Assembly (NCBI GenBank): GCA_031278605.1
Contig: JAITKB010000082.1
Span: forward strand, 1 to 37,552
DNA length: 37,552 nucleotides
From: Tannerellaceae bacterium
Lineage (GTDB): Bacteria > Bacteroidota > Bacteroidia > Bacteroidales > Tannerellaceae
Direction: 5' to 3'
Part shown: one piece after another, positions 1,408 through 37,470 of the stretch
Position numbering within the stretch: the first letter of the stretch is position 1
Layout of the letters: each line of letters starts with the position of its first letter
Notes under the pieces: model-generated
What the model was told of the DNA's origin: nothing
Database searches by the model: none
Seen by the model: only the letters and a program-made list of their open reading frames with translations
Translations under genes and position numbers: made by a program

Positions 1408-1573
1408 TCTAAAACGTATGCTATACAACATAAATCGGGGAAAAGTGAAAAATATTTTTCAAAGGCTTCCCCTTCCCCGGTTCCCGCAGGTTGGAATCCG
1501 GCAATCCCTCCGACTTCCCTATATATTATTGTGTGGGGGAGGAAAAAGACCGGGTAAGCGAAGGTTCCAGGGG

Positions 1574-1945
1574 TTTTTCGTTTGCAACACCCAAGGAATT
1601 CGCGGGAAATCATAGTTTTTCGTTTGCAACACCCTCGGCATTCGCGGGAAATCATAGTTTTTCGTTTGCAATACCCCGATTTCCCTCGAATGACGATACC
1701 ATTGCAAACGAAAAACCCCAATTTCCCGCGAATGCCGATACTATTGCAAACGAAAAACCCCGGGAACCGTCGGCGCCGAGGGATTTGCAGGCGACAAACC
1801 CCGATTTCCCGCGAATGTCGAGGGTGTTGCAAACGAAAAACTATGATTTCCCGCGGCGCCGAGGGGTTTGCAGGCGACAAACCCCGGGAACCGTCGGCGC
1901 CGAGGGTTTTGCAAACAAAAAACGCCGGGAATTCGGAAGGGAAAA
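1574..1945. repeat. Intergenic 41-42-bp repeat array with an internal inversion
   Basis: Three units begin at 1574, 1616 and 1658 with TTTTTCGTTTGCAA, exactly 42 bases apart. Reverse-complement units (TTGCAAACGAAAAA or the variant TTGCAGGCGACAAA) begin at 1702, 1744, 1785, 1827, 1868 and 1909, spaced 42, 41, 42, 41 and 41. The switch of orientation creates a large inverted repeat. The 15-base arms at 1658-1672 and 1702-1716 pair perfectly, and ATTCGCGGGAAAT near 1640 pairs with ATTTCCCGCGAAT near 1721. The array lies between divergent genes (greA leader and the gene at 2052). Several frames stay open through it, but this follows from the unit lengths and composition and is not taken as coding. 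Confidence 0.85.
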
Positions 1946-11700: not shown

Positions 11701-12897
11701 ATGAACGATCAAACAAATAACAGTCAGTCCAGGCGTCAATTTCTGGGACGCTCGGCAGCCGTTTTGGCTGCCACTTCGGTCATTCCCTTCCATTTCGGAT
11801 GCAGCGGAAACACCCCGGCGGAAACCGTGGTTGCCGACAGTTCAAAACCAAACTCCAAGTTCGGAGGTGTACAAATAGGAACAATTACTTATAGCTGGCG
11901 GACGATGGATGGCGGCTTGCAGAACATCATACGCTATTGCAAGGAAGCAAACATCGGTTCCATCGAATTAATGAGCACGGACCTGGAAACTTACCTGGGC
12001 GCTCCGGAAAATCCCATGCAGGCAATGTTTGCCCGTGGCGCCAGCCGCGATCCGGCGAATGCGCCCGGTCCGCCGAGTCCAAGGCCGCCGGATGCGGCGA
12101 ATGCGCCCGGTCCGCCGCCGAGCCCAAGGCCGCCGGATGCGCCGAATGCACCCAATGCAGCAGCCAACCCGAATAATTCCCAATACATACCGGCCGGATC
12201 GGGCTACGTAAGGGTGCCCCGGCAATTGACGCCGGAACAGCAGGCAGCGAGGGATAAGTACAACGAAGACCTGAAGAACTGGCGTATCCAACTCTCCCTG
12301 TCGAAGGTGGAAGAGGCACGCAAGCTTTTGGAAGATAACGGCATTCATGTGCACATTGTGAAATTCTCGCCTGCACAATGGTCCGACGAAGAAATCGACT
12401 ATGCATTTAAGGTTGCAAAGGCCATGGGGGCCAAAGCCGTTACGGAGGAAATCAGTCTTGATGCGGCCCGGAAACTGGCTCCGTTTGCCGAAAAGCACGA
12501 TATGTATGTTGCTTTCCACAACCACATGCAGTATGCGGAAGAAGGCTTTAGCGTCAATCCCATCCTGGAGGTTTCGCCGGCTGTGATGCTGAACTTTGAT
12601 GCGGGACACTTCTACGGCTCCACGGGTATCCATCCGAATGAAATATTGAAGAAATACCACGACCGTATTTATAGCATCCATATCAAGGATAAAACAGGCC
12701 CCACGGCTCCGGAGCCGAACGCCAATCAGGTCTGGGGACAGGGCGAAACGCCCCTGGAGGAACTTTTGCTGCTCATCAAGCAGGAGAAATGGCCGATCTA
12801 TTGCGATATTGAATTGGAATACCCGGTCAAATCCTGGTCGAATCCCGTGAAGGAAGTGGGGATCTGCGTGAATTATGCAAGGCAAATTCTTTTGTAG
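11701..12897 (+). CDS. Tat-exported sugar phosphate isomerase/epimerase (xylose isomerase-like TIM barrel)
   Basis: A 398-residue protein starting with a twin-arginine signal (SRRQFLGRSAAVLAATSV). A cysteine at residue 34 (FHFGCSGN) could serve as a lipobox. The TIM barrel begins with GVQIGTITYSW. Likely metal-binding residues lie in VTEEISLDA, AFHNHMQ, NFDAGHFYGS and CDIELEYP, the pattern of the xylose isomerase-like superfamily. Residues about 115-160 are an inserted proline/alanine-rich repeat not expected in the family. The gene follows the oxidoreductase by 79 bases and is closed by a terminator, so the two form an operon. It probably isomerises or epimerises a sugar or keto-sugar made by its partner. 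The substrate is unknown. Confidence 0.85.
   Translation: MNDQTNNSQSRRQFLGRSAAVLAATSVIPFHFGCSGNTPAETVVADSSKPNSKFGGVQIGTITYSWRTMDGGLQNIIRYCKEANIGSIELMSTDLETYLGAPENPMQAMFARGASRDPANAPGPPSPRPPDAANAPGPPPSPRPPDAPNAPNAAANPNNSQYIPAGSGYVRVPRQLTPEQQAARDKYNEDLKNWRIQLSLSKVEEARKLLEDNGIHVHIVKFSPAQWSDEEIDYAFKVAKAMGAKAVTEEISLDAARKLAPFAEKHDMYVAFHNHMQYAEEGFSVNPILEVSPAVMLNFDAGHFYGSTGIHPNEILKKYHDRIYSIHIKDKTGPTAPEPNANQVWGQGETPLEELLLLIKQEKWPIYCDIELEYPVKSWSNPVKEVGICVNYARQILL
12056..12155 (+). repeat. In-frame tandem repeat encoding a proline-rich insert
   Basis: GCGAATGCGCCCGGTCCGCC opens two successive copies, the first 42 and the second 45 bases long, followed by a partial third. They encode NAPGPPSPRPPDAA-like units inside the TIM-barrel gene. 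Copies differ by one inserted codon, so the repeat changes length in steps of three. Confidence 0.8.
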
Positions 12898-12926: not shown

Positions 12927-12961
12927 AAACCGCCGGGGGGATTGACCCCTTGGCGGTTTTT
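12927..12961 (+). terminator. Rho-independent terminator of the oxidoreductase-isomerase operon
   Basis: AAACCGCC and GGCGGTTT close a stem extended by GGGG/CCCC over a two-base bulge, with T residues immediately after. It starts 30 bases past the stop codon at 12897. Confidence 0.8.
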
Positions 12962-13074
12962 GTTTATGCGGAGTTTCCCGGCGTTCACCGATACGCTTGC
13001 GTCGCTATGCAGGCAACGGGGCAGGTCTTCGGCTTCGGTAAGTGAACGAATCGAAAATCCGTCCCAACCCGCAC

Positions 13075-13704
13075 TTCGCCAAAAAAAAAATCCCGGTCCC
13101 AAATGACAAATCAGGGTTTTCCAAAAGTTATCCCATCATTCTCATTCACAAATCGGGGTTTTCCAAAAGTTATCCCATCATTCTCATTTGCAAATCGGGG
13201 TTTTCCAAAAGTTATCTCTTAATTTTCATTCACAAATTGGAGTTTTCCAAAAGTTATCTTATCATTTGACAAAACAAATTGGGGTTTTCCAAAAGTTTTA
13301 TCCTCATTTGACATTACGGATGGGGAGTTCACAAAAGTTGAACCCTTATTTTACCTGTCGGATGATGGTTTTTCAAATGTTAAACCATCGTCCGACATCG
13401 CGGATCATAGTTTGACAAACGTTAAACCATCGTCCGACATCGCGGATGATAGTTTTCCAAAAATTAAACTGTCATCCGACCGAATGAATTATACTTTTCC
13501 AAACGTTAAACCCTTGTCGGAAATTACGGACGATAGTTCTGCAAACGTTAAACTATTGTCGGAAATTACGGACGATAGTTCTGTAAATGTTAAACTATTG
13601 TCGGAAATTACGGACGATAGTTCTGTAAATGTTAAACTATCGTCGGAAATTGCGGACGATAGTTCCGCAAAAGTTTATGTGTTGTCGGAAATTACGGACG
13701 GAAG
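13075..13704. repeat. Contiguous 42-bp tandem array, 15 units without indels
   Basis: Units begin at 13075, 13117, 13159 and every 42 bases to 13663, so fifteen units fill 630 bases. Left units open with TTTTCCAAAAGTTATCCC and end with ACAAATCGGGG. Right units open with TTCTGTAAATGTTAAACTAT and end with TTACGGACGATAG. Neighbours are most alike (13537, 13579 and 13621 are nearly identical), and sequence drifts steadily along the array, yet the spacing never changes. It fills the gap between convergent genes and stops 20 bases short of the gh3 stop codon. Frames stay open because 42 is a multiple of three; I do not treat it as coding. The preceding 110 bases (12962-13074) hold nothing I recognise. 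Confidence 0.92.
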
Positions 13705-13724
13705 GTTTTCCGGGGAGAAAATAT

Positions 13725-15278
13725 TCAGAAAGTGAACTGTAAGAGTTCCTCTATTTGTATACGGTCGTTGCTGAGGCGGGGAATCTTGTGCTGCCCGCCA
13801 AGTTTGCCTTTCCGCTTCAACCATTGATAGAAAATTCCCTCGCGAGCTATGGTGATCTTCGGGGGAAGAAGGGATAGGTTTTTGTGACGTTTGGCCTCGT
13901 AGTCGGAATTTAACTCCTGGAGATGCCGATCCAGTAAGTCGGCAAAAAGAGAAAGAGACGACGGCATTTTTTCAAACTCAATCAACCACTCATGCATACC
14001 CCGCGCCTTGTTGAGCATAAACAAGGGCGCAACCGTGTACTCTTTCACCTTGGCGTCCGTCAAACGACAAGCCAGGGAAATAGCCCTGTCGGCGTTGTCC
14101 ACCATGAGTTCCTCGCCAAAAGCATTGATGTAATGCCTGGTACGACCCGATATGACAAACTTATGGGGATAAAGCGAAGTGAAACGTACCGTGTCGCCAA
14201 TGAGATACCTCCACAAACCTCCACACGTGCTGATCACCAAGGCGTAATTGACCCCAACCTCCACCGACTCGATGGAAAAAGCACGGGGCGAATCCGTCCG
14301 GGAAAGTTCGTTCAAGGGGATAAATTCGTAAAAGATACCATAGTCGGGCATCAGCAAAAGCGAAGAGTCGAAGGGATCATCCTGTATGCCGAAGAATCCC
14401 TCGGAAGCGTTGTAAGTCTCCATGTAATGCATGGACTCGGAAGGTATCAAAAGCTTATACTGATCGCGGTAAGGCTCAAAGCTAATGCCGCCGTGGAAAT
14501 ACACCTCAAGGTTCGGCCAAACCTCCGTCAAACTCTCGCAACGGGTTTCTTCCAAAAGCGCCTTGATGAAGGTCAGCATCCACGAAGGGACGCCCGAAAG
14601 GCTGTTCACGTCTTCGCCCCGAGTGGCCTTGACGATGGCCCGTATCTTGCTCTCCCACTCGTCCATAAGAATGATCTCCTTCCGAGGCACCCGCATCCGG
14701 TGGACAATCGAAGGTAAATTTTGTATCAACACGGCAGACAAATCCCCGTAATGCGATTGACTGTTCAATGGCGAAGGACTGTGACTGCCACCCAAAATCA
14801 ATCCCTTACGCGAAAAAAAACAACTCCGGGGGTTGTTCCCCAAATAAAGCGCCACACAGTCAAACCCTCCCCGGTACTGTGCCTTGCGTATCTCGGGAGT
14901 GATGGGGATGAGTTTGCTCTTGTCGTTGGTCGTCCCACTGCTCCTGGCGTACCACCGCACACGGGACGGCCAGAGAATATCCTTCTCTCCGTTGATCATT
15001 CTCAGGATATAAGGCTTGATGTCGTCGTAGGTCTGCAACGGGAGACGTTGGGCAAAATCGCGGTAAGTGCGGATGCTCCCAAAGTCGTAACGTCTTCCCC
15101 ACTCCGTACGCCCGGCCCCGGAAAGAAGCTGATGCAACTGTTTCTGCTGGATATGATCCATGCGCCGGGCAAACCCCCGAATCTCCCGCCGACGGGGAAT
15201 CATCATTTGCGACACAAGGCTTGTAAGTAAATCCGGGCCTCCCAAAGCAGGCATAGAAGGAAAACGAAAAGTGCGCAT
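13725..15278 (-). CDS. GH3 family acyl-adenylate amido synthetase-like protein
   Basis: A 517-residue protein of the GH3 (auxin-responsive promoter) family, in the ANL adenylating superfamily. The three family motifs are visible: the ATP-binding loop YARSSGTTNDKSKLIP near residue 105, YNASEGFFG in the middle, and ISGRTRHYINAFGEE toward the C-terminus. Plant members join amino acids to acyl acids; the role of bacterial members is largely open. The start at 15278 (MRTFRFPSMPALGGPDL) is chosen over one at 15359, whose extra residues look like non-coding sequence. No signal peptide is seen, so it should be cytoplasmic. The coding end lies next to the 42-bp array. Upstream are the birA terminator and a promoter flanked by inverted repeats that may control this gene. 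Confidence 0.88.
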   Translation of the reverse strand: MRTFRFPSMPALGGPDLLTSLVSQMMIPRRREIRGFARRMDHIQQKQLHQLLSGAGRTEWGRRYDFGSIRTYRDFAQRLPLQTYDDIKPYILRMINGEKDILWPSRVRWYARSSGTTNDKSKLIPITPEIRKAQYRGGFDCVALYLGNNPRSCFFSRKGLILGGSHSPSPLNSQSHYGDLSAVLIQNLPSIVHRMRVPRKEIILMDEWESKIRAIVKATRGEDVNSLSGVPSWMLTFIKALLEETRCESLTEVWPNLEVYFHGGISFEPYRDQYKLLIPSESMHYMETYNASEGFFGIQDDPFDSSLLLMPDYGIFYEFIPLNELSRTDSPRAFSIESVEVGVNYALVISTCGGLWRYLIGDTVRFTSLYPHKFVISGRTRHYINAFGEELMVDNADRAISLACRLTDAKVKEYTVAPLFMLNKARGMHEWLIEFEKMPSSLSLFADLLDRHLQELNSDYEAKRHKNLSLLPPKITIAREGIFYQWLKRKGKLGGQHKIPRLSNDRIQIEELLQFTF

Positions 15279-15361
15279 GGTAATTATTTTTGGGCGAAGG
15301 TAATACAAAAAAAGCCAACACCCGCCCTCAACAACAATGACGGGGAAAACCCGCAACAAAC

Positions 15362-17001: not shown

Positions 17002-17274
17002 TCACTTAACAAGATCCGACAATTCGGCACCTGCTCTAAACTTGACAACTTTACGTGCAGGGATGCTAATCGGTTCCTTAGTCCTGGGATTTATTCCATT
17101 GCGTGCGGCTTTTTCCGTAACGGAAAATACCCCAAATCCCAAAATCGCAACCTTTCCACCACTTTCCAATTCGGAAAAAATTGTCTCAATGAAAGCATTG
17201 ACTACTTTTTTTGTGTCTTCTCTCTTAAAACCGGCTTTTTCAGCTACTGCGGCAATAAATTCAGTCTTATTCAT
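17002..17274 (-). CDS. HU family DNA-binding protein
   Basis: A 90-residue nucleoid protein of standard HU length. The N-terminal helices (MNKTEFIAAVAEKAGFKRED) are followed by the sheet segment GGKVAILGFGVFSV, the arm NGINPRTKEPISIPARKVVK and the closing FRAGAELSDLV. The proline-tipped arm bends DNA in the minor groove. AGGAG just before the ATG fixes the start. A full promoter match lies at 17379-17409, giving a leader of about 98 bases, and a terminator follows at 16915-16973. It is transcribed alone. HU binds DNA with little sequence preference. Confidence 0.95.
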   Translation of the reverse strand: MNKTEFIAAVAEKAGFKREDTKKVVNAFIETIFSELESGGKVAILGFGVFSVTEKAARNGINPRTKEPISIPARKVVKFRAGAELSDLVK

Positions 17275-37326: not shown

Positions 37327-37470
37327 AAATCCCCGTTGCTGCGAATTCGCAGCCGAGCGGCTGCAAAATCGCAGCCGAGCGACTGCGAACTTGCAGCCGA
37401 GCGACTGCGAACTTGCAGCCGAGCGACTGCGAAATCGCAGCCGCTCGGCTGCGAATTTGCAGCAACCCGG
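37327..37470. repeat. 22-bp palindromic tandem array upstream of murF
   Basis: Units opening with GCAGCC begin at 37349, 37371, 37393, 37415, 37437 and (degenerate) 37459, always 22 bases apart, with a weak copy before the first. Each unit holds an internal palindrome (GCAGCCGAGCGACTGC or GCAGCCGAGCGGCTGC), and the unit at 37437 has the inverted centre GCTC. The remaining 80 bases to the window end show no gene. Confidence 0.85.

Follow-up and report, generated by a model that had tools for sequence, protein, structure and literature searches.

Intergenic tandem arrays in Bacteroidales nearly all fall into two narrow classes of unit length. In ∼2.28 Mb of DNA from this order, 111 of 119 intergenic arrays with a period of at least 18 bp repeat every 21–23 or 41–43 bp. 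Because the period recurs while the sequences differ, the unit length appears to be set from outside the sequence. The array studied here lies in a 37,552-nt stretch of DNA (the window), which is contig C78 of the draft genome of a Tannerellaceae gut bacterium (G000; 2.36 Mb, 140 contigs, 84.5% complete). We tentatively interpret it as one copy of an intergenic minisatellite class spread through Bacteroidales, with its unit length imposed by a putative DNA-binding protein.

Wraparound alignment of the window array gave 14.6 units with 177 mismatches to the consensus and no indels, and a fixed 42-base grid aligned 14 units (Table 1). Both agree with a sequence-only reading of this DNA, which had unit starts falling every 42 bases without net indel. 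That reading counted 15 units from 13075; we count 14 full units, because only the final portion of the segment 13075–13116 matches the others. Across 13061–13730, bases 42 apart match at 74.5%. Unit pairs have a mean identity of 63%, and neighboring units are often the most alike. The first and last units share 43% and the lowest pair 40%, which bears out the claim that the two ends have little sequence in common. Two sub-types of unit can be distinguished. Palindromes in sub-type 2 are centered at 13376.5, 13439.5, 13565.5, 13607.5 and 13649.5; for sub-type 1, the unit reported by the repeat finder lacks dyad symmetry (P = 0.84, whole-unit test).

Table 1. Features of the window discussed in the text
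Feature	Position	Strand	Basis
Second array, 42/41-bp units, 3 forward then 6 reverse	1573–1931	.	Repeat finder and spacing count
Sugar-isomerase-like TIM barrel gene (PF01261), left neighbor	11701–12897	+	Profile match
Candidate intrinsic terminator of the isomerase-like gene, ahead of the array	12927–12963	+	By eye
Array of 42-bp units, 14 full units plus fragments, 0 indels, convergent gap	13096–13708	.	Wraparound alignment
Unit sub-type 1: units 1–6; GTTTTCCAAAAGTT core in units 1–5	13105–13356	.	Fixed-grid alignment
Unit sub-type 2: units 7–14; arms e.g. GACGATAGTT...AACTATCGTC	13357–13692	.	Fixed-grid alignment
gh3-family gene (PF03321), right neighbor	13725–15359	−	Profile match
22-bp array; family also on contigs C1, C35 and C40 (among contigs read)	37339–37463	.	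Clustering

The array occupies a convergent gap beside gh3, as had been proposed, with the two genes ending at 12897 and 13725. We take the PF03321 gene to encode an acyl-adenylating GH3-family protein rather than a glycoside hydrolase; the closest named protein found (76% identity) is from a Tannerellaceae metagenome-assembled genome. A pattern scan listed a terminator-like site at 12936–12951, within the region picked out by eye, and an intrinsic terminator for the isomerase-like gene located before the array is plausible. The scan returned 2 such sites in total versus 1.7 in shuffles, and neither promoter nor terminator patterns exceeded their shuffled controls. No replication gene was noticed adjoining the array. 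Elsewhere in the window, an HU/IHF-type gene lies at 17008–17274 on the minus strand (PF00216, 108.9 bits), one of eight such matches in the genome, and the isomerase-like gene itself contains a 45-bp tandem repeat at 12044–12153 (2.5 copies, 5% indels).

When the DNA of the window array was used as a query, only 1 of 60 genomes matched, its own. There the search found two further long arrays, on contigs C127 and C63, both in divergent gaps. The three arrays together comprise 53 units, and offset 0 gives the best fit for each of the 47 internal ones. The minimum spanning trees over the units have 459 substitutions and no net indel off the grid; this is a high estimate of substitution, because the C127 and C63 borders were set by eye and their outermost units are very diverged, matching others at only 24–26% in the worst pairs. 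If neutral indels arose at 5% of substitutions (an assumed rate), ∼23 would be expected. In the C63 array (L131, 10068–10423), 42-bp sub-types alternate to give an 84-bp superperiod, and, by eye, a unit's 3′ arm looks similar to the complement of the 5′ arm in the unit that follows.

Such exact register is atypical. Among 20 long-class arrays of G000, three of which (L131 18.9 kb, L146 and L148 18.1 kb) lie outside the gene caller's intergenic list, 153 neighboring spacings were measured with 34–50 bp allowed: 133 are 42 bp, 18 are 41 and 2 are 43, and 41-bp steps occur in 9 of the 20. Indel events per mismatch were 33/1094 for the long class (18 arrays) and 8/309 for the short class (23 arrays) in G000, 19/320 and 24/456 in other genus members (G006, G011), and 5/25 and 26/639 in the named loci, so that small indels amount to ∼3–6% of mismatches in the larger samples. 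Some of the G000 long-class events (L134, L138, L153) probably arise as artefacts where the consensus unit has 41 bases. The indel-versus-substitution comparison suggested by the sequence-only reading divides: three arrays have none, but indels mostly run at 3–6% of mismatches elsewhere.

A second array of the same period had been placed at 1574. An array is indeed present there, but its spacings are mixed (five of 42 bp, three of 41) and unit orientation switches inside it. Its forward and reverse units form a large imperfect palindrome, a layout that recurs on C91, C101 and C134. Used as a query, this array found relatives on C91, C101, C46, C52 and C134, and clustering joins this set to that of the window array through only one chain of two intermediate arrays. 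Same-family arrays lie near the start of C46 and the end of C52 with a common 29-bp flank in inverted orientation; the two may represent an assembly break inside a single array. Similarly, the 22-bp array at the end of the window is followed by an 89-bp right flank, running to the contig end at 37552, that is identical to the flank of an array at the start of contig C40; this may mark either an element with dispersed copies or an overlap between the two contigs in the assembly.

For the wider survey, we counted intergenic arrays of at least 2.5 copies and a period of at least 10 bp, and obtained 133. The DNA came from stretches of G000, stretches from its genus, genome G027 and 79 named loci. 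Stretches below 4 kb were dropped, leaving 37 of 41 for G000 and 79 of 80 named loci. Genes were called with our own codon-score script rather than a published gene finder, and thresholds differ between the array and dyad surveys, making counts slightly different. Seven of the 40 further G000 stretches were chosen for holding arrays, so array density in this genome is biased upward. Named loci L049, L050 and L051 are probably the same DNA as genus stretches L301, L313 and L306, which would mean that some bases were counted twice; no family joins the former with the latter. The eight arrays outside the two bands have periods of 18 (three), 19, 63, 66 (two) and 88 bp, and none of the 119 lies at 24–40 or 44–62 bp. 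The 14 intergenic arrays of period below 18 repeat every 11 (four), 12, 14 (seven), 15 or 16 bp. Another 14 arrays with periods of at least 18 bp lie in called genes; 9 repeat every 21, 22 or 42 bp.

A lag scan, which uses no repeat finder, gave a similar picture. In G000, 39 of 149 gaps passed, with periods of 22 (17 gaps), 23 (4) and 42 (18) and nothing else. In other genus members 33 of 211 gaps passed, 31 in the bands plus one each at 69 and 86. In G027 and the named loci 32 of 289 passed, 23 in the bands and the rest at 14 (five), 18, 39 and 66 (two). One shuffle per gap gave no matches at the same threshold; since 39 of 149 real gaps passed where shuffled gaps gave none, the periodicity exceeds chance. 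The sole control from outside Bacteroidota, 200 kb of E. coli, had no passing gap among 67 and one intergenic array, of period 98, which may be a REP/BIME element. DNA from elsewhere in Bacteroidota (320 kb; 16 of 20 phylum stretches) held five intergenic arrays, with periods of 17, 21 (three) and 23, and 140 kb from two other genomes of the order held two, of periods 15 and 21.

Clustering by DNA similarity, with periods below 20 excluded, kept 115 of the 133 arrays and sorted them into 77 families, 61 of which are single arrays. Three families occur in more than one genome and 74 in one only, although sharing is harder to see because most named genomes are represented by a single locus. The sequence-only reading had suggested a genome-wide family; what recurs genome-wide is the period, whereas the sequences differ. 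Modal periods of the families are 21 (13 families), 22 (41), 23 (5), 41 (4), 42 (9), 43 (3), 66 (1) and 88 (1), giving band means of ∼21.9 and ∼41.9, in a ratio of 1.92. It is this ratio, rather than 1:2, that strains the earlier proposal of a row of sites on one face of the helix. Median array lengths are 139, 84 and 109 bp for periods of 21, 22 and 23, respectively, and 347, 241 and 136 bp for 41, 42 and 43. The 21-bp arrays are longer than the 22/23-bp arrays (P = 0.006), as helical phase would predict; 42-bp arrays show no such excess over 41/43-bp arrays (P = 0.59). Dyad symmetry beat shuffles at P < 0.05 in 37 of the 81 units of the short class and 11 of the 30 of the long class. Under a stricter whole-unit test 35 of 107 Bacteroidales units passed, most units failing singly. 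Phased A-tracts showed no 10.5-bp excess within units.

Array positions are not conserved between relatives. Only the isomerase side could be compared for an empty site, because gene order beside gh3 is unconserved in the relatives read. The closest isomerase match (G003, 85% amino acid identity) has no array after the gene; a more distant one (G002, 61%) has repeats after it, with periods of 20, 42 and 41. Among 30 loci with gh3 flanks, arrays of 42 bp (G004) and 41 bp (G017) follow the gene and most loci have none, while G008 carries a 2.1-copy repeat of period 32, outside the bands. Upstream of HipB-cupin genes (21 loci), arrays were found in G000 (42 bp), G004 (21 bp), G007, G013 and G015 (22 bp each); several more flanks run into contig ends, and no array was seen in the others. 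The absence in relatives that had been named as pointing to a local slippage product is thus seen after the G003 isomerase and in most gh3 and HipB-cupin gaps, yet wherever at least 2.5 copies are present beside gh3 or HipB-cupin genes the period is 21, 22, 41 or 42.

Local replication slippage with unconstrained length would account for the frequent similarity of neighboring units. It is already contradicted by the period histogram: two narrow bands across 77 families, an empty range on either side of the long band, and a single lag-scan match (at 39) within that range. We regard it as very improbable, and the occurrence of other 42-bp arrays in the genome supports the sequence-only view that the pattern extends beyond local slippage. 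Equally improbable is that the arrays are coding repeats, in which 42 bp would be 14 codons and indels would be purged to hold the frame. Stops in one frame number 1 versus 4.6 in column shuffles for the window array (P = 0.002), 4 versus 9.4 for C127 (P = 0.012) and 4 versus 7.3 for C63 (P = 0.06), and in-band periods predominate among the arrays inside called genes. Yet all three arrays still have stops in this frame, and the column-shuffle control is loose, because C127 and C63 have fewer stops than shuffles in further frames as well (P = 0.005). Nor do unit differences by codon phase (43/40/30, 80/80/84 and 80/74/101) show a clear three-base rhythm, and the periods of 81 of the 119 intergenic arrays are not multiples of three. 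Arrays could also act as RNA, with transcripts folding into hairpins that end or stabilize mRNAs, which seems unlikely to us. Relative to shuffles, folding energies are low in the window array (plus strand z = −6.2, minus strand −3.7) and in C63 (−10; one strand, 20 shuffles), but C127 reaches only −1.6 (one strand). Arms pair as well with neighboring units as with their own partner. Of the tests against random permutation, two favored own-partner pairing, both in the window array (P = 0.005 and 0.049); the other four gave P = 0.07–0.59. Apparent arm covariation noted by eye (GATGG/CCATC, GATAG/CTATC) was dropped as a candidate, neighbor-unit pairing being about as good. Within the window array no Rfam match came near its gathering score; the best covariance-model score, 23.7 bits against a threshold of 49, fell over the candidate terminator. 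RNA loops, moreover, require no fixed length. Among G000 gaps of at least 60 bp, arrays occupy 10 of the 44 divergent ones, 8 of the 22 convergent and 14 of the 88 codirectional. This distribution, the candidate terminator ahead of the array and the unspecific pairing of arms all weaken the earlier suggestion of a folded 3′ RNA.

The most serious competitor is a mutational ruler, a possibility that we find hardly less credible than our own reading. Here a duplication process (a transposase, or replication and repair acting on hairpins) would add steps of ∼21–23 or 41–43 bp, and periods would be fixed when arrays arise rather than through selection. Such a process accounts for bands across dissimilar families and for the small indels in many arrays. 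Two 22-bp families look like MITEs, because leader and tail flanks of ∼30–100 bp are common to their separate loci, and inverted ends were seen by eye in one 22-bp family. There is also precedent in P. gingivalis, where MITEs with 23- and 41-nt repeats are described (PMC4596501). But comparison of separate 42-bp loci at E 1e-3 turned up no common flanks, a genome search for PF01609, the one transposase family sought, returned a single sub-threshold match, and fixed-step duplication leaves the exact register of three heavily diverged arrays unexplained. Protein–DNA geometry and fixed-step duplication are close in odds, and we prefer the first only slightly.

Among the closest known systems, two are in P. 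gingivalis. The BrickBuilt MITE consists of intergenic, imperfect 23-nt tandem repeats with predicted long stem-loops, present in 19 dispersed copies in strain ATCC 33277; MITE464/PgRS carries 41-nt direct repeats without homology to the 23-nt repeats, and 22-nt repeats are likewise reported (PMC4596501). These periods of 22, 23 and 41 lie within both bands found here. Arrays in G000 are likewise intergenic, imperfect, tandem and dispersed in one genome, and BrickBuilt as described there resembles our 22/23-bp class, leader and tail flanks included. Unlike BrickBuilt, however, the window array has a 42-bp unit (22 or 23 bp being found among the genome's other arrays) and no flank in common with other arrays; the inverted ends seen by eye in one 22-bp family may correspond to the IS5-like terminal inverted repeats that, with target duplication, mark BrickBuilt. 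The 41-nt unit of MITE464/PgRS, compared by description, is near 42; the window array has 42-bp spacing alone, and 18 of the 153 spacings in the 20 G000 arrays are 41. REP/BIME elements of enterobacteria are intergenic, palindromic and sometimes tandem; the arrays here are also intergenic, tandem and often partly palindromic, and we know of no two-band period in REP/BIME elements. In plasmid iterons, protein sites recur ∼21–22 bp apart, about two helical turns. The analogy is one of spacing, the arrays here differing in their many chromosomal loci, palindromic units and drifting sequence. They also have the constant spacing near whole turns of a helically phased protein-binding array, with the band ratio as a caveat.

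Under the protein-ruler reading that we slightly prefer, arrays would be gained and lost between species, those of 22 bp moving partly as MITE-like elements, and all would change by adding or losing entire units. Unit length would be imposed externally, most likely by a putative conserved DNA-binding protein or complex contacting neighboring units at a distance of about two or four helical turns, and arrays with other unit lengths would be selected out. We favor selection because three diverged arrays keep exact register and because the 21-bp arrays are longer than their neighbors in the band. Four of the eight out-of-band arrays (63, 66, 66 and 88) were counted for this reading. Against it stand the indels in other arrays, the 41-bp steps, the band ratio, the unremarkable length of 42-bp arrays and the missing 10.5-bp component, as well as the failure of most units in the dyad test, the unconserved positions, and lag-scan periods of 14 (five), 18, 39 and 69. 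The more specific proposal, that throughout Bacteroidales a putative conserved factor, either a protein or a complex, recognizes how dyad-bearing units are spaced and not their sequence, is doubtful.

Bacterial tandem repeats are usually explained locus by locus. That 77 families nearly all fall into two unit-length bands sets the recurring part, the ruler, apart from the sequence, which does not recur, and raises the question of whether a host factor selects, or a process generates, DNA modules by length. We found no description of a two-band period rule in the titles and abstract beginnings of the open-access literature searched; one rule would cover the 22-, 23- and 41-nt repeats of P. gingivalis as well. 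If the more specific proposal is true, species keep gaining new repeats that fit one ruler, and the result would be intergenic sites coded by spacing and free of sequence. The question of what sets the ruler bears on chromosome organization in a group central to animal guts.
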